From Arthrobacter sp. HY1533 (GTDB taxonomy: Bacteria > Actinomycetota > Actinomycetes > Actinomycetales > Micrococcaceae), in assembly GCF_027568515.1 (NCBI RefSeq), contig NZ_JANKZF010000021.1:1-64000 (forward strand): DNA of 64,000 nt, given 5' to 3'. Shown piece after piece: positions 13,690 through 31,410 of this stretch. The notes below the pieces were generated by a model, which worked only from the letters and a program-made list of their open reading frames with translations, was not told the origin of the DNA and ran no database searches. The position numbers and the translations under genes are program-made. Position 1 is the first letter of the stretch; each line of letters opens with the position of its first letter.

Positions 13690-16221
13690 CTACCCGGCCA
13701 GGGCCGCAGCCAGCTCAGCACGGCTGGCAACACCGAGCCGGGCAAGGATGTTGCCCACGTGCGTGTCCACGGTGCGCACCGACAAGTGCAGCTTTTGGGC
13801 AACAGCCTTGTTGGACATGCCCGCGGCCACGAGGGCGGCAATTTCGTGTTGCCGCCTGGTGAGTTCGGCCCGGGCGGCCGGGGCCGGGAACCACAGCCCC
13901 AGCGCGTTCAGTCCGGCCACCGCCGCGCCGACCATGCCCGGCTCGGCCTCGATGAGGGCCCTGGCGTGGGACAGCAGGGCGTGCGGCAGCGGGCCCTCGA
14001 CCCGGGCCGCGGCCGCCTCAACCCCCGGCAGCAGGGCAGCCCTCCGCGCGGCGGGGGCCTGCGCCAGCTGCAGGTGCGTTCCCAGCAGCACGCCGAGGGC
14101 GAGGCCGCCGGCATCGGACCAGTTGATGTAGTCGGCCACGAGCACCTCCAGCCCGGGCGTGCCCAGCGCACTCTCGGCCAGCAGCACCCGGTACCGGCTG
14201 TCGCATTCAATGTTGCGGTCGGAGTAGGGCGCGTTGTTGCGGTATTCCCGGCAAGCCTGCTGGGTGTTGCGGCGCTCGCCCAGCATGGCGTAGGCCTGGG
14301 CAAGCCCCGCCCAGGCTGTCGCCTCAAGGCCCGAGGGCGCACCCTGGCCCATGCGTGAGAGCCCGCCGCGCAGGTGCGCCACGGCATGGTCCCAGGCACC
14401 CAGCAGCACGGCGCTGTAGCCCTCGCCGGTCTGGATGAGTGCCGCGTGGTGGCGTTGGTGTGCATCCTCGGGCAGCTCCGGGAAGGTCAGCGCCGCGGCC
14501 AGATTGCCGGACCACACGGCGGCCCAGTACCGGGCACCGATGATCGCGGCCCGCACCAGCGGGAAATCGGCGTGCGCGGGACCCACGAGCTGCAGCTGAA
14601 GATCGGCAAGTTCAAAGGCCGCCACGGGCTTTCCCGACTGGCCCAGGGCGAAGATGTACGACGGCGCAAGGGTCATGTTGGCGGGGATGTCGGCTGCCGC
14701 CAGCTGGGGTGCCCAGCCGGCCAGCACCTCCGCAAAGCGGCCACCATGACCCAGCCGGGCAAGATGCTCCACGGACAGTTCGGTTGCTGCCACACCGGCG
14801 GGGTCCAGCTGCTTGGCCGCGGCGGCCAGCAGCTCAAGGGCGCCCTCGAGGTCCCGCCGGTGGAACTGGCGCAGGTCGGCACGGATGCGTGCCACCTGCA
14901 CCAGGACGCCCTCGGGCAAGGGCTCCGTGCCGGCCTCGAGCAGGTCCAGGTCGGCCGCGGCGCTTTCACCCCAGCCGGCGTCGCGGTTGGCCCGCGCGCG
15001 CTGCAGCAGGGCTTGCGTGCGCTCCGCGGCGGAAATGCGCGGCTGTGCCAGGGCGGCCGTGGCCATGGCTGCGGCCCGTTCCGGCTGCGACATGGACTCC
15101 ACCGCGGCCGACGCGGCCAGGAGCACGGGCACCCCCGGGCTGGCTCCGCATTCCATGGCCCATTCCACCCAGCGTGCCAGTTCCTGGTGGTTGTGGGGGC
15201 CGGGCTCGGGTGCGGGCAGGAGGTCAAAGAGCGCCCTGCGGCGGCGGGGGTACAGGAGCCCGCGGAGTGTCTCGGCGTACAGGGGGTGGCCGATGCGCAC
15301 GATTTCCGGGCCCTGCGCGGCGGATATGGTGACGAGGCCGCGCTCCACGAGGTGCTTCAGGTCCGCGTCCGTGGCCGCCGGCCCCAGTGCGTGCAGCGGC
15401 ACGGCCTCGGCCAGGGCCACAAGGTCCACCACGTCGCGGGCGGGTCCAGTCAGCGCCGTGACGTCTGCGGCCAGCAGGTCGGCCAGGCGCCGGTTGCTCC
15501 GCAAGGGGGCGGTCCAAGTCCAGGCGTGCCCGGAATGGACCACGTCCCCGGCCTCCACAATGGAAAACAGCAGCTCACGGACATGCAGCGGGTTGCCCCC
15601 CGTGGCGTGCCACAGCCGGTAAGCCATCTCGTTGGATGACGGGCCGGGCAGCACCTTGCCAAGGATCAGCCGGACGGCGTCGTAGGCAAGCGGCGTGAGG
15701 TCGGTGCGGTCCAGGTGCCCGCTGCGCCACAGGGCGTCCAGCGCCCGCGGCAGGCCGGGGTTCTCCCGCGCTGAGCCGACCAGCCGGGCCGCCCCGCCCG
15801 CTACGAGGCTCGCCAGCACGCCGGCGCTGACGTCGTCGAGCAGGTGCAGGTCGTCGCAGCCAAGCAGCGGCACGGCACCGGGCACCATGGCACCGATGAT
15901 GGCGGCTGCGTGCGCGGCGAGCATTTCCGGCGGCGCGGACGATGGCACCGGAATGCCCAGCCATTGCTCGATGTAGACCGCACCCGTGCCGTGTTCCTGG
16001 GGAGCAGGCAAGCGCACGACGGCGTAGCCCTCGGCTTCCAGCCCGGCAAGGGCCCTGGCAGCCACCGTGGACTTGCCCAGTCCCGGGGAGCCCATGATGG
16101 CTGTCCCGCCGCTTCCGCCGGCCAAGCGGGAGGACAGGAGGGCAATTTCAGCCTCGCGCCCCACGATGGGCCAGTGCAGCCTGGGCGGCAGCGCTTGCAG
16201 CAGCGCGTCATGTGAGGCCAA
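13690..16221 (-). CDS. Large ATP-binding LuxR-family transcriptional regulator
   Basis: An 843-aa regulator of the MalT/LAL-like architecture: N-terminal AAA-type ATPase (Walker [10 protein letters not shown] at residues 44-52, Walker B-like [14 protein letters not shown]), a long helical-repeat middle rich in Ala/Leu, and a C-terminal LuxR HTH (about residues 780-843: [20 protein letters not shown], then [19 protein letters not shown]). Such proteins activate transcription on binding ATP and an inducer. The target is unknown; the nearest divergent candidate is none, since the SMP-30 gene is on the same strand. The start reads TTG with GGAAG 4 nt upstream, so it is only moderately sure. Confidence 0.88.
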
Positions 16222-19992: not shown

Positions 19993-20811
19993 CTAGTCCT
20001 TTTCCGGAAGGGCGGCGGGGATGCGGGCGAGCATGCCGCCGTCGGCCCTGATCTCGGCGCCGGTGACAAAGCTGGCCTCGCTGCTGGCCAGGAAGCAGGC
20101 CACCTTGCCCACTTCCAGGGGCTGCCCCACCCGGCCCAGCGCATGGGCCGTGCCCCAGTTGGCGATGGTCCGCTCAATGCCCTCGGGAGAGCCGTCTGAC
20201 CAGTCGGCGGCCGCCTGCCGCAGCATGGGCGTGTCAATGGAGCCCGGGAGCAGGGAGTTGACCCGGACGCCATGGCGGGCCTCGTCGACGGCGAGTGCGC
20301 GGGCCATGGCGTTAAGTGCACCCTTGGTCATGGCGTAGCCAACCACATTGTTTTGCGCCGCGACACCCTGCACGGATGAGATGAGGGTGATGGTGCCTTG
20401 CGTGCGGCGGATTTCCGCGATGGCCGCGTGGACTGCCAGGAAGACGCCGCGGACATTGACGGCGTAGACGCGGTCAAAGTCCTCCGGCGTGGTGGTCTCC
20501 GCGTCCCCGTATGTTTGGATGCCCGCCGAGGTGACCAGGTGGTCGATGCGGCCAAACTCGGACAGGGCCAGTGCAACTGTGCGCCGGTGCACATCCTCGC
20601 TTGCGACGTCTCCCCAGATTCCCACGGCCCTGCCGCCGGCCCCGAGGACCTGGGCCACCGCGGATTCCACCGGCGCCTGCGTCAGTCCGTGGACCACGAC
20701 GGCGGCACCCTCGGCTGCGAAGGCCTCGACGGCACCGCGCCCGATCCCCGTTGACCCGCCAGTGACGATGACGACCTTGCCTTCATGCCGAAGCACACCC
20801 ATGTTCCCCAT
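19993..20811 (-). CDS. Short-chain dehydrogenase/reductase
   Basis: A 272-aa classical SDR oxidoreductase. The cofactor loop TGGSTGIG (residues 17-24) and the catalytic set N119, S146, Y159, K163 (YAMTK) are all present. The acidic or basic residue deciding NAD(H) versus NADP(H) is not clear (VVVHGLTQ after strand 2). Related enzymes oxidise sugars such as L-fucose or D-arabinose, but also many other alcohols, so no substrate is assigned. The ATG at 20811 is used; an ATG 3 codons on is as likely (GGGG just upstream). It is divergent from the enolase-superfamily gene 373 nt away. Confidence 0.9.
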   Translation of the reverse strand: MGNMGVLRHEGKVVIVTGGSTGIGRGAVEAFAAEGAAVVVHGLTQAPVESAVAQVLGAGGRAVGIWGDVASEDVHRRTVALALSEFGRIDHLVTSAGIQTYGDAETTTPEDFDRVYAVNVRGVFLAVHAAIAEIRRTQGTITLISSVQGVAAQNNVVGYAMTKGALNAMARALAVDEARHGVRVNSLLPGSIDTPMLRQAAADWSDGSPEGIERTIANWGTAHALGRVGQPLEVGKVACFLASSEASFVTGAEIRADGGMLARIPAALPEKD

Positions 20812-21184: not shown

Positions 21185-22291
21185 ATGAAAATCACCCACG
21201 TGCGCGTTGTGCCTGTCAAGGTGCCCGCAGCCGAACCTGCCTTCAAATGGCGCGATGGCCTACCGGGAAGTTCGGGCCCCTATGAGGGCGCCGTCCTGCG
21301 CATCTCCACCGATGTTGGGGCAGAAGGCGTTGCCGTCTTTGCCCGTCCGGGCGCCGCAACCATGTTGCAGGACCTGGTGGACAGGCTCCTGCGCGCGGAA
21401 CTCGTTGGCCAGGACCCGTTGCGCCGCGAATACCTGTGGCACCGCCTCTGGGAACTGGACCGCATCGACGAAATCCCGCTTCCAGCCCTTGGCCTGGTGG
21501 ACACCGCCCTTTGGGACCTGGCCGCCCGGCTGCAAGGCCTACCCCTGTGGGAAGTTTTGGGCGGCTTCCGTGACAAGATCCCGGCCTACGCATCAACATC
21601 CACCTTCGCCAACATCCCGGAATTTCTCGACGTCGCCACACAATGCCTCGAGCTCGGATACCAGGGCATCAAACTCCACGCCTGGGGCGACGCCCGCCGC
21701 GACGCCAAGCTATCCCAGGCCCTGCGCGAGCACGTAGGCGGGGACGTCCCCCTGATGTACGACGGATCCGCCGGCTTTGACCTGCCCGACGCCACCTACC
21801 TGGGCCATGCCCTCGCCGACGCCGGCTACCTCTGGTACGAGGAACCCATGCGCGAATTCAGCATCACCGCCTACCGGCGCCTGGCCGAAACCGTGCGCGT
21901 GCCGCTCCTGGTGGCCGAGACCTCCGATGGCGCCCACATGAACTCCGCCGACTTCATCGCTGCCGGCGCCGCCACCTTCGGCGTAAGGATCAGCACGAAT
22001 CTGCGCGGTGGCGTCACGGGTGCCATGCGCACGGCGCACCTCGCAGACTCCTTCCGCCTCCGCGCAGAACCCCACGGTTCCGACCTGCCAACACACCACC
22101 TGTGCATGGCCGTCCCCAACGCCACCTACTTCGAGTCCCTCGTCACCAGCACCGCCGTGGTGCGCGACCCGCACATCGACGCCAACGGCATGCTGCACGC
22201 ACCCACCTCACCCGGCATCTCCTTGCCGGCGTTCATCGACTATCCCGCCGAGCTTTCTGAGTTCGTCGAAGAATTGCCTGTCTTCCCCTGA
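21185..22291 (+). CDS. Enolase-superfamily enzyme of the mandelate racemase/muconate lactonizing type
   Basis: A 368-aa enzyme, probably a sugar-acid dehydratase. Metal ligands are at D193 (MYDGS), E219 (WYEEPM) and E245 (LVAETSDG), within two residues of mandelate racemase D195, E221 and E247. The second-strand motif is K163-L-H165 in place of the usual K-x-K. H297 (RAEPHGS) falls on the catalytic His of mandelate racemase, but the position of its dyad partner Asp270 is Ser here (VRISTNLRGGVTG). So the family is clear but the reaction is not. ATG start, weak ribosome site. It ends 41 nt before the secreted-protein gene on the same strand, so the two may form an operon. Confidence 0.9.
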   Translation: MKITHVRVVPVKVPAAEPAFKWRDGLPGSSGPYEGAVLRISTDVGAEGVAVFARPGAATMLQDLVDRLLRAELVGQDPLRREYLWHRLWELDRIDEIPLPALGLVDTALWDLAARLQGLPLWEVLGGFRDKIPAYASTSTFANIPEFLDVATQCLELGYQGIKLHAWGDARRDAKLSQALREHVGGDVPLMYDGSAGFDLPDATYLGHALADAGYLWYEEPMREFSITAYRRLAETVRVPLLVAETSDGAHMNSADFIAAGAATFGVRISTNLRGGVTGAMRTAHLADSFRLRAEPHGSDLPTHHLCMAVPNATYFESLVTSTAVVRDPHIDANGMLHAPTSPGISLPAFIDYPAELSEFVEELPVFP

Positions 22292-22332
22292 TAGGCATGT
22301 TCCCCACCCAACAGAGAACAAAAGGAATGACA

Positions 22333-25300
22333 ATGATGTCAGCAAGTCCACCGCGCGCCCTGCGGCGTGTTGCCCTGACCGGGGCTGCAGCGCTCATCGC
22401 CGCGGGCCTGGCCCTGCCGGGTGCTGCGCAAGCGCAGCAAGTCCCCGGCAACGCCCCCTTCATCAACTCGTGGCTGGTCTCCGGCCCCTACGACACGGCC
22501 GTGGCCGACGGGATTTACGGCTGCACTGTGCCCACGGTCAGCAACCTCGCCAGGTCCGCAACAGCGACGGCCTCCTCTGCGCTGGCGCCCAATCCGGCGG
22601 CACAGCTCAATGACGGCGACGTCCGCAAGCAGTGGGTGGCCGAGGGCGACACGGCCCCCTGGGCCAAGTTGACGTGGGCATCGCCCATCTCCCTGAACGA
22701 GGTCCGGATCGCGCAATGGGGCGACGGCCGCCATGTGAACGGCGCCTACCAGCTCACGTTCACGCTCGCCGACGGCTCGAGTGTCGAGTCGCCGCGGGTG
22801 GCCAGCACGTCCGGCTCCCCCACCTCACCCACGATTTACACCCATCCCTCGACGCTGCAGGGCGTCGTGTCGGTGACGGTGGCCGTTGACCCGGGCCTGG
22901 TCCCCTACCCCTCCATCACGGGCCTGTCCGAGATCGAGGTCTATGAACGGTCGCAGCCGGCAGAGGGCAAGGAACCGATCACCCCTGCCCTCGGCGGACA
23001 GCTCACCCCCGGCGCCACGGACGGCAAGTGGGAGTACTTCGATGACCGCGTGTACAACCGCAACTACGACGACTACCAGGACCTGTACGGCTACTTTTCG
23101 GTCAAAAAGGGCGAAGACACCCGCAACAAGTACGTCTACGCCCACAGCTACGTGTACAGCCCCGAGGCCCGGAAGGCATTTGTCAACGTCGGCGCCAGCG
23201 GTTCATACCGCCTCTACGTCAACGACCGCTGCATGACGGCACCGAGCACCCCCGCCGAGGTCCAGAAAGACCAGACGCGGCAGGAAGTTGAGCTCAAGGC
23301 AGGCTGGAACAAGGTCCTGCTCCAGATCCAGCACACGTACACCGAGGACCTGAACGCCAATGGCGTCCCGGCCGCCAAGGACCAGAATGTGGCCTACCTC
23401 GGGTTCTATGGCCGCATCAGTGATGCCAACGGCAACCGCATTGACGGGATTCAAAGCTCCGTCGAGGGCCCCGGCAAGGCGCTGTCGATCGACACCCAGG
23501 CGCTGAAGAATCAAGGTGGCGGGGAGGATTCACTGCCGTCCGGAACACTACCGACCGGTTACCTCGAGTGGCCGTATGTATGGAACGGCTCGGTCACCAA
23601 CAACCGCTACGGCGTCTCGGCCTCGGCCTTCCAGTTCATCGCCAGCGGCGGCCAGCCCGGTTACACCTGGAAGCTGGTGGACGGCGCACTCCCCGACGGG
23701 CTGGAGCTGACCCCGGACGGCCGGATCGCCGACGGGTTCGTTAACGGCAAGCCCGACCTCGCCAGCGGCAAGGGCATCATCAGCGCCTCTGCACGCATTG
23801 GCGACTACAAGTTCACCCTGGCCGTCACGGATGCCTCGGGCGCAACAGTGAACAAGGAGTTCACGCTCACCGTCAAGGACCGGCCCAACCGTGACTTTGA
23901 GGAGGGGCGCGTCAGTGCCTTGACGCACGCAACACCCATCTACAACTACTTTGTGGACCCGAACTACTCGGTGGACCAGTGGGCCCAGCGGGCCCAGAAG
24001 CAGGGCCACTCACTCGTTGCCCTCGAGGCCCTGCAGCAGAACTACCACTGGCCGTCAAAGTTTGCCGATCCTGCGCATGACCGCAACCAGTACATGCCCA
24101 AGGATGCCAACGGCAAGGTGGTGGACGGACTCAAGCCGTTCGCCGACGCCGTGCGCCGCTACGGCATGGACCTGGGAATCTACTACGCCACCGAGGGCGG
24201 CGGGCTCCAGCACTACTCAACGGATGTTTTCGTGCAGAACGTGGAGGACCTGCTGGAGCGCTACAACCCCAGCTACCTCTACTTTGACGGCCCGCAGGCC
24301 ATGCCCGGGGCGAACTACGACGTGATGTACAGCGCCGTGCGCAACCACGGCAACGACGTCGTCATTGATTCAAATGCCTGGGGCGAGGAATTCGGCGATC
24401 CAGACATCCGCACCGATGAGGCCTCGGGCATGTTCTCCAATGCAGGCGCCAACCACCTGGCCAAGCGCACACCGGTGGAGCCCTGGAAGATGATCCGCAC
24501 CCAGAACCAGCAGTCACCGTACTACGGCCAGCGCGACGATTTCCGGATGGTGGCCCAGGAGACCATCATGAACGCCGGGCGCGGCTACGTCGACAACAAC
24601 GACCAGACGGTGATCGACAGCCGCGGACCGAACTGGCACTCCCCCACGGAGATGGCAACCCGCTACCCCAAGGGTGTCCAGGAATTCATCGATGTGCGCG
24701 AAGCCATGGTCGACTGGTGGCAGCCGGCGGCGGGCATCAACCTGCATGAATCGATCACCGGCACGACCCCCCGCTTCCTGCCCGGATACGGCTACGAAGA
24801 CGACGGGCAGGGCAACTACGACAAATTCGCCCACCCGAACGCGGCCACCGGCCCGCAGTGGGGCTACGCAACAAGCCGCGACAACAACATCTACCTTCAC
24901 ATCGTGAAGGGCCCCGACGGCAAGAAGGGCTTCGACGCCATCACGGGCAATTCCCTGGACGTCGGCGGCATTGCACACAAGGTCAAGTCCGTCACGCTGC
25001 TCAACACGAACAAGCCGGTCAAGTCCTTCAAGCAAGACGGCGCATCGCTGGCCATTGACCTGTCCGGCATCGCCGCAGACCCGATCGACACCATCATCAA
25101 GATCGAAACCGACGACAAGGCACGCAAGTACCAGCTGACGAACCTGACAGTCGATGCGCAGCCGCTGGATGAGGGCAAGCTGGCGCTGAGTGCCGGCGGA
25201 TACATGAAGTACCCCTCGCTGGCCACCTCGGTGGAGAAGGTCAAGTTCAAGTCCTCCAGCAACAAGGTCGCCAAGGTCCGCAAGGACGGCGTGGTGGAGC

Positions 25301-26181
25301 CCGGCGCGGACGGCACGGCAACGGTCGCCATCACGGCCGAGTCCGGCGGTGTCAAGAAGGCCACAGAGGTCAAGGTCTCGGTCCTCAACGGTGTTGCCTT
25401 CATCGGCGAGGACCTGACCGGGGCCGTGCTGCGCCTCGACGGCAAGGAGGCGTTCGGGACATTTGGCAACGGCGCGGCAGCTTCCTATGCACTCGACGGG
25501 CGCTCGGTGAACGGCCAGTCCGTCCGCCTGGATGCAGCCGACATTACGTGGCACACCGGCACAGTCGCTTTGTCGGGCGGCACCAAGACGGCACCCATTG
25601 CCATCACCGAGGTGGACACGTTCACCATTGCCGACGGCAAGGTCACCATGCCCCACGTCTCGTCAACAACGCGCGGCGTTGTCTGGGCCGAGGTCAAGCT
25701 GGGCGGAAAGTCCGTCACCAGCAACCGGGTGTTCTTCGACATGCTGCCCACAGGCAACCTCGCCGCAACAGCGAAGGCCACGGCCAGCGACAACTCCCCC
25801 TCAGCGGCCAAGCTGGTCGACGGGATCGGCATCGATGCTGCCAACCTCGCCGGTTCCGGCTGGTCGGCACCGGGCGAGAAGGCCTCCTGGGTCCAGTTTG
25901 AGCTCGGCAAGACTGCTGTCCTGTCCGGCGTCGAGCTGAAGTTCAATGTGGCCAACCACCGCTACGTCAATGCTCCGAAGAAGATCAACCTCCAGACCAG
26001 CGCCGACGGTGCCACCTGGGTTGATGCGGGGACCGTGAACGGCCCTGGCGGCCAGTCCTACTTCGGCACCATCAACAGCTACCCGCTGGCGGGCTCGGCC
26101 AAGTATGTCCGGGTTTCCTTCCCGGAGGGTTCGCAGGGATCCACCCTGGACCTGCTCGAGGTCGCTATCAACGGCAAGTAG
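22333..26181 (+). CDS. Secreted discoidin/Ig multidomain protein with fucosidase-like core
   Basis: A 1282-aa exported protein. The signal peptide (RR, hydrophobic core, AQA cut before QQV) is followed by an F5/8 type C domain (about 70-205), a WLVSGP...YFDDRVYNRNYDDYQDLYGYF region (about 35-60 and 230-400), a putative Ig domain (LPDGLELTPDGRI, about 440-515), a glycosidase-like region (about 517-860), beta-rich Ig/Big2-like repeats, and a C-terminal F5/8 type C domain (1141-1282). YLYFDGPQ places an Asp (D652) where GH29 fucosidases have their nucleophile, but the HHDGF motif is absent. I see no LPXTG or membrane anchor. ATG 22333 has AAAGGA 6 nt upstream. Paralogue of the convergent gene at 26572. 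Confidence 0.82.
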   Translation: MMSASPPRALRRVALTGAAALIAAGLALPGAAQAQQVPGNAPFINSWLVSGPYDTAVADGIYGCTVPTVSNLARSATATASSALAPNPAAQLNDGDVRKQWVAEGDTAPWAKLTWASPISLNEVRIAQWGDGRHVNGAYQLTFTLADGSSVESPRVASTSGSPTSPTIYTHPSTLQGVVSVTVAVDPGLVPYPSITGLSEIEVYERSQPAEGKEPITPALGGQLTPGATDGKWEYFDDRVYNRNYDDYQDLYGYFSVKKGEDTRNKYVYAHSYVYSPEARKAFVNVGASGSYRLYVNDRCMTAPSTPAEVQKDQTRQEVELKAGWNKVLLQIQHTYTEDLNANGVPAAKDQNVAYLGFYGRISDANGNRIDGIQSSVEGPGKALSIDTQALKNQGGGEDSLPSGTLPTGYLEWPYVWNGSVTNNRYGVSASAFQFIASGGQPGYTWKLVDGALPDGLELTPDGRIADGFVNGKPDLASGKGIISASARIGDYKFTLAVTDASGATVNKEFTLTVKDRPNRDFEEGRVSALTHATPIYNYFVDPNYSVDQWAQRAQKQGHSLVALEALQQNYHWPSKFADPAHDRNQYMPKDANGKVVDGLKPFADAVRRYGMDLGIYYATEGGGLQHYSTDVFVQNVEDLLERYNPSYLYFDGPQAMPGANYDVMYSAVRNHGNDVVIDSNAWGEEFGDPDIRTDEASGMFSNAGANHLAKRTPVEPWKMIRTQNQQSPYYGQRDDFRMVAQETIMNAGRGYVDNNDQTVIDSRGPNWHSPTEMATRYPKGVQEFIDVREAMVDWWQPAAGINLHESITGTTPRFLPGYGYEDDGQGNYDKFAHPNAATGPQWGYATSRDNNIYLHIVKGPDGKKGFDAITGNSLDVGGIAHKVKSVTLLNTNKPVKSFKQDGASLAIDLSGIAADPIDTIIKIETDDKARKYQLTNLTVDAQPLDEGKLALSAGGYMKYPSLATSVEKVKFKSSSNKVAKVRKDGVVEPGADGTATVAITAESGGVKKATEVKVSVLNGVAFIGEDLTGAVLRLDGKEAFGTFGNGAAASYALDGRSVNGQSVRLDAADITWHTGTVALSGGTKTAPIAITEVDTFTIADGKVTMPHVSSTTRGVVWAEVKLGGKSVTSNRVFFDMLPTGNLAATAKATASDNSPSAAKLVDGIGIDAANLAGSGWSAPGEKASWVQFELGKTAVLSGVELKFNVANHRYVNAPKKINLQTSADGATWVDAGTVNGPGGQSYFGTINSYPLAGSAKYVRVSFPEGSQGSTLDLLEVAINGK

Positions 26182-26183
26182 AA

Positions 26184-26220
26184 ATGAGGCGCCGCACCCC
26201 TTCTGGGTGCGGCGCCTCAT
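26184..26220 (+). terminator. Strong hairpin after the 1282-aa secreted protein
   Basis: A perfect 16-bp stem (ATGAGGCGCCGCACCC and its complement) with a 5-nt loop starts 2 nt after the stop. No long T run follows. Confidence 0.75.
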
Positions 26221-26221
26221 T

Positions 26222-26484
26222 GCTTGTGCGGGGTCCCGGTTCAGCCGAGGCCGGGTTGCCGGTCACGGGACGTAGAGGCGCATCCGCGGCTGCCATGGCT
26301 GCCCATGCGTGGTCGTGCATCTGGGGCAGCGGGTGTGCCGACACGCGGTAGCCGTTGAGCCACTGCCACGAAGTCCTCCGGTGCAGCCTTGCGCAACTCT
26401 TCACGCAGCGCATGCAACTTCGGCGTTGGCACGCCCGAAGCAGTGACCTTGGATAAATTAACAGTGATCCCGTGGGCACAGAAA
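26222..26484 (-). pseudogene. Possible decayed small reading frame
   Basis: In the 390-nt gap between the two large secreted-protein genes, the minus strand reads SKVTASGVPTPKLHALREEL then RKAAPEDFVAVAQ in one frame. It continues plausibly as QWLNGYRVSAHPLPQMHDHA in another frame, changing near 26355. The amino-acid content looks protein-like but neither frame has a good start and stop. I do not recognise a family. It may be a frameshifted remnant or chance. Confidence 0.25.
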
Positions 26485-26517
26485 CGCCCGGCGCCGCCTT
26501 GGGGGCAGCACCGGGCG
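26485..26517 (-). terminator. Terminator of the 1612-aa secreted protein gene
   Basis: A 7-bp outer stem CGCCCGG/CCGGGCG with a partly paired interior lies 55 nt after the minus-strand stop and is followed on minus by TTTCT. Confidence 0.6.
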
Positions 26518-26571
26518 CTTGAGCCTGTCACTTGCGTCCCGGGCGCGGGGATCCGCGCCACGGGACTGGAA

Positions 26572-29500
26572 CTACGGCCGCTTGACGGTCACCACCGCCT
26601 TGGCCTTGACCGGGGTGCCGGCAATGGTGCCCTCGACGGCGAACCATCCGGCCGCGGCGACGTCGGCTGCCGGGATTGGTGCCCAGCTGACCGGGACGGC
26701 TTCGGTGCTGCCGTCGGTGAACACCGCATTGACCTGTGCCGGCAGCGCCGGCAGGGCACCGACAACCGTGTCCGCCACCGTGGTGATGGCGTCGGCGACG
26801 GCCCGTTCAGTTTGCGGGCCGAAGACCTGGAATTCGGCCAGGCCGGATTCGGATCCGATCGCCACATTGTCAAAGGGCATGTTCGGGTCAATGGTGAACT
26901 TCAGCCACGAGGTGGTGACTGGGGCATCGAGCTGCACGATGTTGTCCGGCTGGCCATCCCATTTCATGCCGGTGACCATCTTGGACCCGCCTTCCCACTC
27001 GAGCAGGCCTTCACCGGCGCGGTCCACCGCGGCGCCGCGCTCCACCAGGTTGATCCGGTCAATCTGCACGGGATTGGGGAAGCGGAGGGTAATGGTGGGT
27101 GTCGCGTCGGACTTCTTTGCCGCCCAGGACGTCGACTTGTTCCCATCGAGGGCCTTGGCTCCCACATAGCGTGAGTCCGCATCGTTTCCGTCCGGGTTGC
27201 CGTTGCGGTCACGCACGGATGACACGCTCACTTCGGCCAGTCCGGCGAGGTTGTCGCCGCTGGCTTGCAGGGTTGCGGTGTTGGTGCTGACAACCACGCC
27301 GTCCAGGGTCACGGTGGCCACAACGCTTGAGCTGAACGTTCCCGCAATGGGCTCCTTCAGGACGATGACGTTGCTGCCGGGCACTTGCTGGAGCCGGTTG
27401 TCGCTGAAGGAATAGGTTACCTCCGCGCCTGCCACGTTGGCCGGCTCACCTGTGTTCAAGACCCCTTCCAGGGTGGCAACCACAGGGGATCCGACGCGGA
27501 TGTTCGCTTTGTCCAGCTTCAGTGTTGCGGAGGTCAGGTACGTGGGCAGCGTGATGCGCAGGTCCTGGTCCACGTCCACGTACAGTTCCCCAGCGGCGCG
27601 GTAGCCATTGCGGCTGGCAGCCACGGCAATCTTGGCCCGCCCCGGCGCAACAGCGGTGGCAGTCCCCCGCGCGTCGACCGTGGCAACGGCCGGGTTCGCA
27701 CTGGAGTAGGCCAGCTCACCCTTCTTCAGGTCAACGGGCTGGTCCATGAAGGACTTGCCCTGGCTCTTGATCTTCGCGGTCCGGCGGTCCTTGGCCACAT
27801 CCGCCTCAAGGGCGATGCTTCCCAGCGCCGTCATGTCACGCAGGGAGTGGACCTGCACTTCCAGGACGTCGACGGGGCTGCCGTCCTGGCCTCCCCCGGG
27901 GAAGGACACCCGGACATACCGGGCCTGCACGGTGGTGTGGTTCGGATCCACGGGGTAGTTGTAGTAGAGCCCTTCCTGTTCCCAGCCATACAGCGTGGTG
28001 TCACTCTTGGGCACTGCCTTGGTGTTGCGCTGGGTGGGAAGCCCGCCGCCGGAGAGCTCCGAGGTTTCCGTTCCCGTTGTCCAGCTCTCACCGTCCTTGC
28101 TGTACTCAATCTTCAGCTGCTTCGGCACGTTGTAGTACGTGACATTGTCCCGGTTGGGCATGTGGTGGTTGAAGAAGACATTCACGCGACTGAGGTCCTG
28201 GACTGACTTCAGGTCGTAGCTCAGGCTGCCGGCCTCCCCTGCGGGAACCACCCACTTGTCTGCATTGCCGCCTGCGGCATCATTGATCGTGCCATTCGAA
28301 AGGCTCTTCGCATGGTCGGTGTCCGTGGAAACCTCAGGAACAATTCCGGCCGCCGCGTTGCTGTCCGGCTTGATGGTGACAAAGTTGCGGGTCGAGGTGA
28401 AGGCCTTGCCGTCGATGGTGACATCGGCCCAGTAGCTGTACATGGTGGGCTTGGTGACGCTGCCGGTGACTTCCAGGACCCCGTCCTTGACGTCGAAGGG
28501 CACCTTGTCGGCTGTGACCTCGCTGATGTCAACCTTGCCGGAGGGGATGTCGCGGCGTCCATTGACTGTCGCAAAGTGGTACTTCACGTCGCCCGCATTC
28601 GGGATGTCGACCTGGCCGCCCTTCTCGGTGTACGCCTGGAAGGCAACGGGCACCTGCTGGCGGACCTGCAGCTCCTTCCAGAACTGCGCTCCGCCGGTTG
28701 TCATCTCGACGCCGGTGAGCGGAAGGTTTGGTGAGATGACGCCGTCGCGGACGATCACCGGGTAGGTGTCTGTCTTCACCTGCGCCGCATTCACGCCGTC
28801 CTTGTAAGTTGCGGTGACGGTGATTGTCGCTGTGCCGTCACCCTTGGCCTTGATTTTTCCGCTCGCCCCGCTGGGCGAAGCGACCGACTTGTTGTCGCTG
28901 CTGTACGTCAACTTTGCCGGTGCCAGGACGTTGGTGAGGCCGTTCAGGTAGCTTTCGGCACGGAGCTGCAGGGTGCCTGCATCCTTTTGGCTGCTGAAGG
29001 CCTTGACGCCGCTCAGCTTGTAGTCGCGCACAGGGTTGTCCGTGGTGACCTTCAAGATGGTGTCGATCGGATCGGCGCTGACCGTGGAGCTGTCAATGGT
29101 GGCATAGTACTTCTCCCCCACCCTCTTGGAGGTGAAGTCCAATGATTTGCCTTCGTTGAGCCATTCGACCTTCGTGACGGGGTGGCTGAACGGTCCAATT
29201 TCGCTCAATTGTTCCTGGCCGGCCAACCCGGACTTGGCCGTTCCCTTGATGTAGTTCTCGATCAGGTGCAGGTAGACGTACTGGTCGCGGGCCATGGCGT
29301 AGCCCCAGTCGGGCCCCTGCCCGAACGCAATCGCCTTCTGGGGGTCCTCGAACCATCCCGGCTTGAGGTCGTAGTCGAGCGTGTAGGGCGTGGTGCCATA
29401 GAGGGACTCGCGCAGGTCCGGTCCACCGGAGTTGTCCATCCAGGTGATGATTGACTTGCGCATGTCCGAGAGCTGCTGGGAGGAGATGGGCACCATGGAG

Positions 29501-31410
29501 AAGATGTTCTCGTTGTCCAGGTTGGAACTGAGGTTGTCCATGCCGCGGCTGACGGTGATCGAGGAGTCATAATTCATGACGTATCCGTGGCCGTATTGGT
29601 TGATCATCTCCTTGGTGGCCTGGGTCCAGTCATCACGCTCGTTGCCCTTGGCGTACTGAGTCCAGACGTCCAGGGCCGTGGTGTAGGGATCGTTCCACTC
29701 TTCGTGGGCGGTCTTGCGGCCCTGTTTGAGGATGCCGTTGACCCAGCCGCCCTCGTTGTAAGGTTCGGCGTGCCAGAAGGGCCGCTCGTGCAAGGTGATG
29801 TCCTGGTCACCAGTCTGGGCATTGGGGTTTGCATCGATCAGGACCCGGTCATTGAAGTTACGGGCCGAGCTCCAGGCCACGTCAACGTTGGAGTATGACT
29901 CGGGGCCGCCGTCGGCAAACACGTACCAGGGATCGTACTTTGCCACCAGGCCTTGGATGTCGCTTTCAAGGATTTCACGGCCTTCGTACAGCGAGGAGAG
30001 GTAGACGCCGAATTTCAGGCCTTGGCGTTCGGCCGCTTCCTTTGCCTGCTGGACCCGGTCGCGCACATGCCAGCTGCCGTCGCCGGCCTGCTGCAGGGCG
30101 TTGTACTTGAACAGCTTGTTGCCGTTGTTCGGTGTCAGGTTGGCGTTCGGGGAGGGCCAGAAATACACGGTGTTTTGGACGGTCTCGGTGGAGAGCATGG
30201 TCATGCCCATCTCTTTTGCCGTCTGGGCCCACTCGTCATAGTTGTAGTTCGGGTCATAGAGGTTGGGCATGGTGCCGGTGGTGTGCGACAGTGCGGACAT
30301 TTTCCCGTCGATGAACCAGTCCACGGGGTTCTTCTTGGCCGTGATGGTGAACTGCTTGCTCGCGGTGCCGCCATCGGCGTCGGTGACCTTGACTGTGAAG
30401 GCGTAGTCCTTGGCCCCGCTCCCGTGGGCCCCGTCCTTGACCGTGCCCTCGATGCGGCCATCGGCTGCAAGGGCCAGGCCCGGAGGAAGGTCCCCGCCGG
30501 CAAGGCTCCAGCTGTAGCCGGGCGCTCCGCCCGCGGCCTGGAAGGTGAATGCCGAGGCCTGGGGCGCGATTGAGGAGGTGTTTGCCTTGCCGTCAAGGGT
30601 GGCCTTCATGGCGACATAGGGGTTCTCGTCGTAGGCGTACGGCAGGACGTTGGCCGGGAACTCGTTGGCAGGCACGTTGGCGTTGCGCGCCTCGAAGGCT
30701 TGCTTGTCGACGTCGAGCCCGCCTGTTGCGATGGACAGCCCGCCGGTGCCGCCCGCCACGGAATAGCTCAGATTGGGCACCTCGTTGCCGGCGGTGTCGG
30801 AGATCCGTGAATAAAAGCCCAGGAAATTCTTGTTGGCCCCGGGGTCCTTGTGCTGGATCTCGAGGACCAACTTGTTCCAGCCGGCCTTCAGCGAGACCGG
30901 GTAGCGCGTCCCGGACTTGCTCACCCGGTTCGCTATGGCCGTTTGGGCGCCCACGCGCGCATCATTGGCGTAAACCCGGTAGACACCTGACCCGCCAAGC
31001 TGCCACTGCACGTCCTTGGCGGTAGGGCTGAAGACGTACGTGGCCGCCAGGACCCATTTGTCGTCGGTGGGCTGGCCCTGCTTGACGTCGAAGTAGCCCA
31101 TCAGGTCGTTGTAGTCGTCGTAGTTGCGGTTGAATATCCGGTCGTCGAAATACTGCCAACTGGATTCTTCGGCGCTGCCGGGTGCCGCCAGTTTGGCGCC
31201 AAGCACGGGTGTCACGGCACCGGCGTTGCCCTCGGCCACGGGCGCCGTGAACGGGCCCGAGACCAGCCACTGGTTTTGGTAGGGCGCGGTGCCGCCTGTC
31301 TGCATGGCTTGTGCCGGCGGCGTCGCCAGCACTGCGCCGGAGGCCAGCAGGGCCGTGGTCATGGCCACGGCTGCCGTTCTGTGCGCTGCAATGCGCAATC
31401 TCTTCATCAT
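26572..31410 (-). CDS. Secreted giant multidomain protein, paralogue with fucosidase-like core
   Basis: A 1612-aa exported protein (signal peptide KRLRIAAHR, hydrophobic core, cut near PAQA-MQ). Shared with the 22333 gene: QWLVSGPF, YFDDRIFNRNYDDYNDLMGYF-like segment, LKAGWNKLVLEIQH, FLGFYSRISD, and Ig domain LPPGLALAADGRI. It also has the catalytic-like region with YVFADGGPES (Asp 500 matching D652 of the other). The C-terminal half differs: two Big2-like Ig segments (GDGTATITV; AVATVDARGTATAVAPG), two discoidin-like regions (about 1030-1180 and 1430-1530), and a final Big_4-like domain. No anchor is visible. ATG with AAGGA 4 nt upstream (next ATG equally good). The glycan substrate is not known. 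Confidence 0.82.
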   Translation of the reverse strand: MMKRLRIAAHRTAAVAMTTALLASGAVLATPPAQAMQTGGTAPYQNQWLVSGPFTAPVAEGNAGAVTPVLGAKLAAPGSAEESSWQYFDDRIFNRNYDDYNDLMGYFDVKQGQPTDDKWVLAATYVFSPTAKDVQWQLGGSGVYRVYANDARVGAQTAIANRVSKSGTRYPVSLKAGWNKLVLEIQHKDPGANKNFLGFYSRISDTAGNEVPNLSYSVAGGTGGLSIATGGLDVDKQAFEARNANVPANEFPANVLPYAYDENPYVAMKATLDGKANTSSIAPQASAFTFQAAGGAPGYSWSLAGGDLPPGLALAADGRIEGTVKDGAHGSGAKDYAFTVKVTDADGGTASKQFTITAKKNPVDWFIDGKMSALSHTTGTMPNLYDPNYNYDEWAQTAKEMGMTMLSTETVQNTVYFWPSPNANLTPNNGNKLFKYNALQQAGDGSWHVRDRVQQAKEAAERQGLKFGVYLSSLYEGREILESDIQGLVAKYDPWYVFADGGPESYSNVDVAWSSARNFNDRVLIDANPNAQTGDQDITLHERPFWHAEPYNEGGWVNGILKQGRKTAHEEWNDPYTTALDVWTQYAKGNERDDWTQATKEMINQYGHGYVMNYDSSITVSRGMDNLSSNLDNENIFSMVPISSQQLSDMRKSIITWMDNSGGPDLRESLYGTTPYTLDYDLKPGWFEDPQKAIAFGQGPDWGYAMARDQYVYLHLIENYIKGTAKSGLAGQEQLSEIGPFSHPVTKVEWLNEGKSLDFTSKRVGEKYYATIDSSTVSADPIDTILKVTTDNPVRDYKLSGVKAFSSQKDAGTLQLRAESYLNGLTNVLAPAKLTYSSDNKSVASPSGASGKIKAKGDGTATITVTATYKDGVNAAQVKTDTYPVIVRDGVISPNLPLTGVEMTTGGAQFWKELQVRQQVPVAFQAYTEKGGQVDIPNAGDVKYHFATVNGRRDIPSGKVDISEVTADKVPFDVKDGVLEVTGSVTKPTMYSYWADVTIDGKAFTSTRNFVTIKPDSNAAAGIVPEVSTDTDHAKSLSNGTINDAAGGNADKWVVPAGEAGSLSYDLKSVQDLSRVNVFFNHHMPNRDNVTYYNVPKQLKIEYSKDGESWTTGTETSELSGGGLPTQRNTKAVPKSDTTLYGWEQEGLYYNYPVDPNHTTVQARYVRVSFPGGGQDGSPVDVLEVQVHSLRDMTALGSIALEADVAKDRRTAKIKSQGKSFMDQPVDLKKGELAYSSANPAVATVDARGTATAVAPGRAKIAVAASRNGYRAAGELYVDVDQDLRITLPTYLTSATLKLDKANIRVGSPVVATLEGVLNTGEPANVAGAEVTYSFSDNRLQQVPGSNVIVLKEPIAGTFSSSVVATVTLDGVVVSTNTATLQASGDNLAGLAEVSVSSVRDRNGNPDGNDADSRYVGAKALDGNKSTSWAAKKSDATPTITLRFPNPVQIDRINLVERGAAVDRAGEGLLEWEGGSKMVTGMKWDGQPDNIVQLDAPVTTSWLKFTIDPNMPFDNVAIGSESGLAEFQVFGPQTERAVADAITTVADTVVGALPALPAQVNAVFTDGSTEAVPVSWAPIPAADVAAAGWFAVEGTIAGTPVKAKAVVTVKRP

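Follow-up and report, generated by a model that had tools for sequence, protein, structure and literature searches.

In the glycosidase family GH29, a pair of adjacent His residues (HH) binds the hydroxyls of fucose. Two reports place the GH29 nucleophile after strand β4 of the barrel and the acid/base after β6, with a conserved Tyr that hydrogen-bonds the nucleophile (PMC10154630; PMC11189522), and they mention GH29 members reported as α-galactosidases or α-glucosidases (PMC10154630) as well as an exo-α-L-galactosidase (PMC11189522). Here we analyze two genes, called A and B, in a 64,000-nucleotide stretch of the genome of Arthrobacter sp. HY1533 (contig NZ_JANKZF010000021.1, positions 1 to 64,000; the window below). 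Their products, predicted to be exported, belong to an under-annotated deep GH29-like branch that likely shares the mechanism of GH29; as judged from alignments, the catalytic residues are apparently kept and the sugar pocket appears to have been rebuilt.

Gene A (22297..26181, + strand) encodes 1294 amino acids from its first ATG, and the alternative start at 22333, used in an earlier sequence-only reading of this DNA, gives the 1282 residues that it had reported. Gene B (26572..31410, − strand) encodes 1612 amino acids. Both open reading frames were recovered where that reading had placed them, are intact and convergent, and show the codon-position pattern of guanine-cytosine content of a coding frame. 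The two proteins are 33% identical over 1167 residues (BLASTP, 473 bits, E 2e-146), a likeness far above chance, and are true colinear homologues. The reading had held that their module order differs, which the alignment contradicts: A and B have the same domain order.

The core of each protein (A residues 528-948, 23878..25140, +; B residues 359-800, 29011..30336, −) is clearly homologous to GH29 over the barrel and the C-terminal β domain, as judged by profile searches, hhalign and Foldseek. Single-sequence Pfam searches place the family under the curated PF01120 cut-off of 25.2 bits: A scores 19.5 (23.2 for its core alone), a third paralogue in the same genome scores 16.6, and B gives no PF01120 line at all. 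For this reason the proteins are likely annotated only by their immunoglobulin-like (Ig) and discoidin modules. When cores alone were compared with PF01120, four of five members gave matches with E ≤ 1, the lowest value being 5e-5. In a search of PDB with a five-sequence profile, the first 15 of the 18 entries listed were GH29 or putative α-L-fucosidases (E 2.2e-6 to 0.37), seven of them at E < 0.01, and the last three were unrelated sequences (E 0.41-0.71). By hhalign, the family aligned with GH29-B (28 loci) at 97.7% over 134 columns and with GH29-A (32 loci, of which L087 and L088 proved to be GH29-B in the tree described below) at 99.1% over 316 columns that span the barrel and the C-terminal β domain; one gene is common to both control sets (L043 = L088). 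Five unrelated alignments, two of them from TIM barrels (LacZ and the enolase type), gave 0.1-1.3%, and column shuffles (20 for each set, 40 in total) did not exceed 1.6% with GH29-B or 3.3% with GH29-A. The earlier description of the family assignment as weak therefore does not stand against profile values of 97.7-99.1%, compared with at most 1.3% for unrelated controls, and the fucosidase-like core that it had noticed is borne out by the PDB profile, hhalign and Foldseek matches.

AlphaFold models of the two cores were each predicted from an alignment of four sequences (A and B of the window and two Agromyces loci). A search for viral GH29 genes that might enrich this alignment yielded two loci, which were not used, and a search with a profile yielded none. 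Foldseek searches with the two models, which are of low confidence, retrieve GH29 structures ahead of all others: all 50 matches shown of the 95 with E up to 0.001 for the A model are GH29 or α-L-fucosidase structures (best E 1.1e-11), as are the first 45 of the 50 shown for the B model (best E 8e-7). Because Foldseek also reads the amino-acid letters, these matches do not provide evidence separate from the sequence comparisons. The structural comparison with GH29 proposed earlier returned GH29 entries first; the lack of a TIM barrel, which would have refuted the earlier reading, was not observed, but the barrel itself is unproven, the models being poor.

Among described enzymes, the best PDB profile match (E 2.2e-6) is the GH29-B α-1,3/4-L-fucosidase of Bifidobacterium longum subsp. 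infantis (3ues/3mo4/3uet). Like this enzyme, the family has an aligned Asp in the nucleophile position: D664 of A (24286..24288, +), which the sequence-only reading had numbered D652 from the later start, and D500 of B (29911..29913, −) align with D172 of 3ues, in agreement with its choice of candidate nucleophile; the title of 3uet describes a D172A/E217A mutant. The candidate acid/base is E708 of A (24418..24420, +) and E542 of B (29785..29787, −), aligned less certainly than the Asp. In forced alignments, E708 falls on the Glu of GPDxRWxGNEAG in GH29-B, a region matched by DPDIRTDEASG in the family, and in the GH29-A alignment on the Glu of a d..t.E stretch. The HHDGF motif is missing from both proteins, as had been noted, and the GH29-B segment KHHDGFCLWPS corresponds to LQQN--YHWPS in A and VQNT-VYFWPS in B, with WPS after the second strand retained. 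By hhalign, Q580-Q581-N582 of A (24034..24042, +) take the place of HHD, in a segment two residues shorter, and Q412-N413-T414 of B (30169..30177, −) align at the same place. Unlike GH29-B, A and B also lack the EW loop after strand 1, the stretch after the first-strand His that holds EW being ~12 residues shorter, and carry a large added N-terminal domain. GH29-A (9eu2, AlfB, Thermotoga 1hl8) gives the longest profile alignment (316 columns) and the top Foldseek matches, but at 12-15% identity in the Foldseek alignments and with the HH pair again missing from A and B; its WE aligns with WK in A and WN in B. In an 11-row alignment of family cores, which includes two pairs of rows with identical cores, H544/H376, Y629/Y470, D664/D500 and E708/E542 are among 109 invariant columns, and E577 and Q580 are likewise invariant within the clade.

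The HH pair is constant in GH29 proper among the sequences examined, HH(D/E)G being a feature observed here rather than one by which the literature defines the family. HHDG occurs in 28 of 28 control loci; for these, and for part of the matches that follow, frames were picked by presence of the motif, so the counts mean that a frame of this kind exists in each locus and do not reflect a blind choice. Of 63 PF01120 matches above cut-off, 39 were examined, including the five weakest: 35 carry HH(D/E)G, one carries HHSG (L090), and three lack HH (L102-L104). These three are GHL6 proteins of ~700 residues that match PF14871 at 101-106 bits and lie just over the PF01120 cut-off, and L103, the one of them used as a query, matches the α-L-fucosidase structure 6tvk, the GH151 enzyme, at E 6e-81. 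GH151-like enzymes are thus also GH29 barrel relatives without HH, and show that such relatives can form a family of their own next to GH29. Membership of A and B in GH151 was rejected: hhalign between the family and a profile of the three GHL6 proteins gives 0.7%, no similarity beyond chance, though GHL6 against GH29-A gives 97.9%, and GHL6 proteins, unlike A and B, exceed the PF01120 cut-off. PF14871 was not listed for A or B in the Pfam scan, and 6tvk was absent both from the PDB profile listing and from the Foldseek matches listed for either model. Other families that act on fucosides, GH139, GH95 and GH141, were rejected by fold, which is described as (α/α)6 for GH139 and GH95 (PMC12282258) and as a β-helix for GH141 (PMC10154630). 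Two further loci with GH29-type sequence look broken or mis-sequenced, the sequence of L105 occupying more than a single frame and that of L106 lying in a short open frame.

A tree of 69 rows separates the family (nine rows, two identical ones having been dropped) from GH29-A and GH29-B together by a branch of 3.2 changes per column, supported at 100/100; the tree is midpoint-rooted, does not include the GHL6 rows, and carries a long-branch warning. The family could be either a sister of GH29 or a branch lying deep within a more broadly drawn GH29. This placement outside the sampled GH29-A and GH29-B clade, together with scores under the curated Pfam cut-off, agrees with the earlier suggestion of a distant group. 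A literature search of titles and abstract openings, with most subscription journals outside its coverage, found no paper on this clade.

Based on these comparisons, we lean, with modest confidence, towards the explanation that A and B are secreted, retaining exo-glycosidases with a GH29-type barrel, a rebuilt −1 subsite and a fucose-like glycone. Each would be a multi-domain enzyme built on a GH29-type (β/α)8 barrel with a C-terminal β-sandwich, and would act by the retaining double-displacement mechanism that GH29 uses, Asp664/Asp500 being the putative nucleophile and Glu708/Glu542, the less certainly aligned of the two, the putative acid/base. The residues that in GH29 hold the fucose hydroxyls appear rebuilt, since the strand-1 EW loop is shortened and HHD after strand 2 is changed to QQN in A and to QNT in B, and therefore the enzymes probably remove an α-L-fucoside-like sugar in a setting that is poor for canonical GH29. 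Candidate glycones are a substituted or different sugar of the fucose/L-galactose type, or one bound within a polymer. A precedent for a GH29 barrel moving to another glycone is the exo-α-L-galactosidase BpGH29 (7lnp, 7ljj), which Foldseek lists for both models and which is a GH29 member by name and according to PMC11189522. The common N-terminal domain and the discoidin/Ig modules probably anchor the enzyme on a polysaccharide, which is probably galactose-rich, and A and B could represent two specificities for one glycan. Judging by the gene neighbourhoods of relatives alone, the product might then be imported by a linked sugar ATP-binding cassette (ABC) transporter, trimmed by linked β-galactosidases, and oxidized or dehydrated by linked Gfo/Idh/MocA and enolase-family enzymes.

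Several observations weigh against this explanation. The match of E708 lies in a low-confidence part of the alignment. The models are poor, with a mean predicted local distance difference test score (pLDDT) of 48.4 for A and 38.9 for B; the Foldseek matches of A have template modelling (TM) scores of 0.41-0.51 and root mean square deviations of 9-12.5 Å, and the first 45 of B have TM scores of 0.23-0.28 and deviations of 5.6-25.7 Å. The GHL6 relatives without HH indicate that a lost HH need not mean a new sugar, and the loss could instead mean lost activity. Among the neighbours scanned in the window there is no importer and no β-galactosidase, and the genes linked to relatives vary by locus, the enolase-family match being absent from the G400 and C26 stretches described below.

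The strongest competing explanation, which we nonetheless consider unlikely, is that A and B are α-L-fucosidases for plain terminal L-fucose in which the motif has drifted, the remodelling being neutral or affecting only the aglycone. It is consistent with the apparent retention of the catalytic pair and with the β-galactosidases of some loci, which would fit Fuc-Gal side chains, and GH151-like barrels also lack HH, including one that closely resembles the fucosidase structure 6tvk, so that loss of the pair in A and B is compatible with plain fucose as substrate. It has to accommodate the presence of HH in all GH29 proper examined (28/28 loci and 36/39 above-cut-off matches, the other three being GHL6), the clade's retention of its own invariant E577 and Q580, and a genome that already has five canonical GH29 genes. 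These five lie above the Pfam cut-off on contigs C3, C62 (two), C64 and C67, with the HHSG-bearing L090 among them. Endo-action on a fucose-containing polymer, instead of exo-action, is improbable in our view, in that the retrieved structures are named as fucosidases or as an exo-α-L-galactosidase, even though the large, modular, exported proteins would suit it and a strand-1 loop shorter than in GH29-B could open the site into a cleft; the models are too poor for any judgement of such a cleft. Also in favour of endo-action, the genes linked to the third copy include one for a CBM6 protein that weakly matches the GH141 type, and endo-fucanases are reported in GH141 (PMC12786026). That the cores are non-catalytic, GH29-derived carbohydrate-binding pseudo-enzymes within a many-domain adhesin, as the lost HH and the many binding-type modules could suggest, is very improbable given that the Asp and Glu, with a site Tyr and His, are invariant across A and B classes only about one third identical in the core, and that relatives sit in catabolic-type loci.

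A broader and more tentative proposal, which we regard as possible, is that the clade forms a deep lineage of its own alongside GH29-A and GH29-B, the third of its kind, or else a GH29 sister family like GH151. In it, HH and the EW loop would have been replaced for a different glycone and the barrel joined to a new carbohydrate-binding N-terminal domain, and A and B would be a conserved pair of enzymes for a single rare polysaccharide from soil or plants. With its catalytic acids apparently retained and its sugar-holding residues exchanged, the clade would be a natural experiment in glycosidase pocket change, and it could supply enzymes for sugars on which standard fucosidases may not act.

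The distribution of the family is patchy. The genome of HY1533 has three full-length copies. Among 58 genomes searched, 22 were others of its genus; a full-length relative was found in 0 of these 22, and five have a match to the discoidin region only. Among 396 genomes of the order, two exceed 500 bits (HY1533 and the genome we call G400) and 33 score at most 40 bits, all 28 examined of the latter having KHHDG. The genus of G400 is Agromyces, as assigned from cores identical to those of Agromyces sp. Root81 (L011) and A. cerinus (L012), and four of 60 genomes of that genus have relatives at E up to 1e-20. A search of 396 genomes across the phylum recovered HY1533 alone at E up to 1e-12; other phyla were reached by a single contig scan of the kind that finds close relatives, and no relatives of A and B were found in plasmids or in viral contigs. 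That carriers are scattered over two families within a single order suggests horizontal transfer. Class A is present in all five carrier genomes, and class B in three (HY1533, G400 and G454), in each case together with A. B proteins are 72-74% identical between genera and A and B only about one third, so the duplication seems to have preceded the spread of the loci, and functional divergence after duplication is plausible.

The N-terminal domain, shared by both classes, appears to be an orphan. It had no significant match in Pfam (best E 0.068) or PDB (best E 0.097), and a search of 297 genomes of the order, a set that contained no Agromyces carrier of the family, recovered the three copies of HY1533 and one weak partial match (E 9.6e-4). 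The latter (L099) is an open frame that runs off the end of its locus, is otherwise unlike the A/B family and adjoins a solute-binding-protein-like gene. The motifs reported earlier (WLVSGP, YFDDRxxNRNYDDY, LKAGWNK and FYxRISD) do occur in both proteins and align with each other, but they lie in this domain, outside the catalytic core. The domain is 46-51% identical between B and the A-class rows, compared with 32-34% for the core, and the simplest reading of its better conservation may be a common binding task with diverged barrels.

Both proteins begin with signal-peptide-like sequences, judged by eye, that would direct their export. In A, the candidate signal peptide (22333..22434, + strand, beginning at the alternative start) has an Arg-rich start, a hydrophobic stretch and an AxA motif, and ends with AQA at residue 46. 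It is followed by the first part of the N-terminal domain with WLVSGP (22447..22542, by alignment), a DUF7402 discoidin-like insert that is absent from B (residues 83-216, 22543..22944; PF24135, E 2e-9), and the second part of the domain with the YFDDRxxNRNYDDY, LKAGWNK and FYGRISD motifs (22978..23499), a segment for which Pfam and PDB give no significant match. A He_PIG Ig-like domain (residues 437-526, 23605..23874; PF05345, 26.3 bits against a cut-off of 24) precedes the core, after which come a weak Big_2-like domain (25210..25365; 18.9 bits, under the cut-off of 22.8) and an F5/8 type C (discoidin) domain (residues 1161-1277, 25777..26127; PF00754, 57.8 bits). In B, on the − strand, the N-terminal domain is uninterrupted (residues 40-230, 30721..31293, by alignment), and a He_PIG domain (residues 278-357, 30340..30579; 39.9 bits) leads into the core; downstream are a discoidin-like domain (residues 1048-1121, 28048..28269; PF22633), Big_2 (residues 1223-1266, 27613..27744; 36.7 bits), DUF7402 (residues 1387-1530, 26821..27252; 47.8 bits) and Big_4 (residues 1549-1598, 26617..26766; 45.8 bits). 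By Pfam, the layouts therefore differ in the extra DUF7402 insert of A and the extra C-terminal Big_2/DUF7402/Big_4 tail of B. The third paralogue, on contig C26 (1647 residues, 69% identical to A), carries both the N-terminal insert and a C-terminal DUF7402 extension.

Upstream of A in the window is a gene for an enolase-superfamily, sugar-acid dehydratase-like protein of the mandelate-racemase type (21185..22291, +), 68% identical to a gene in two Agromyces A-loci. The first ATG of A lies 5 bp past the end of this gene, so the two are probably co-transcribed; a promoter scan found none, and a terminator scan gave a result near chance. An attempt to read the sugar from the enolase-family gene did not succeed, the best NCBIfam match being L-talarate/galactarate dehydratase at 111 bits against a cut-off of 500 and the PDB names being generic, and searches with Gfo/Idh/MocA and LacZ proteins indicated no sugar either.

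The loci of relatives are of a catabolic type. In the Agromyces A-loci L011 and L012, with domains scanned mostly in L011 and assigned in L012 by identity, the order is GntR, enolase-family dehydratase, LacI, solute-binding protein, permease, Gfo/Idh/MocA and A; a GH35 gene is nearby in L011, and a LigD gene after the A-loci is likely housekeeping flank. G454 has GntR, enolase type, a second GntR, B, LacI, binding protein, Gfo/Idh/MocA, A and LigD, and G400 has two Gfo/Idh/MocA genes, permease, binding protein, ROK regulator, LacZ-type GH2, GntR, B, LacI and A. On contig C26 of HY1533, the third copy follows GH38, a CBM6 protein, DUF5054, LacZ, ROK, binding protein, permease and Gfo/Idh/MocA, the GH141-type match of the CBM6 protein being 24.9 bits, under its cut-off of 27. 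The C26 and G400 loci share LacZ (78% identity), ROK (69%), binding protein (80%) and oxidoreductase (83%). Binding proteins of the two locus types have no mutual match at E 1e-8, so two importers seem to be involved. Overall, this context suggests that a side sugar is removed outside the cell and that import, trimming and breakdown by oxidation follow, and the linked dehydratase, oxidoreductases and β-galactosidases of relatives make the question of the substrate directly testable.

Some further genes were noted. The G400 locus has a 747-residue open frame, with no Pfam match at E 0.01, between its two Gfo/Idh/MocA genes (L053:3866-6109, −). In the window, a short-chain dehydrogenase gene (19993-20811, −) is divergent from the enolase-family gene and could share its sugar pathway; near three Agromyces loci this dehydrogenase has only distant matches (~36%). 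Elsewhere in the window, an 843-residue open frame (13690-16221, −) ends in a C-terminal LuxR-type DNA-binding domain.

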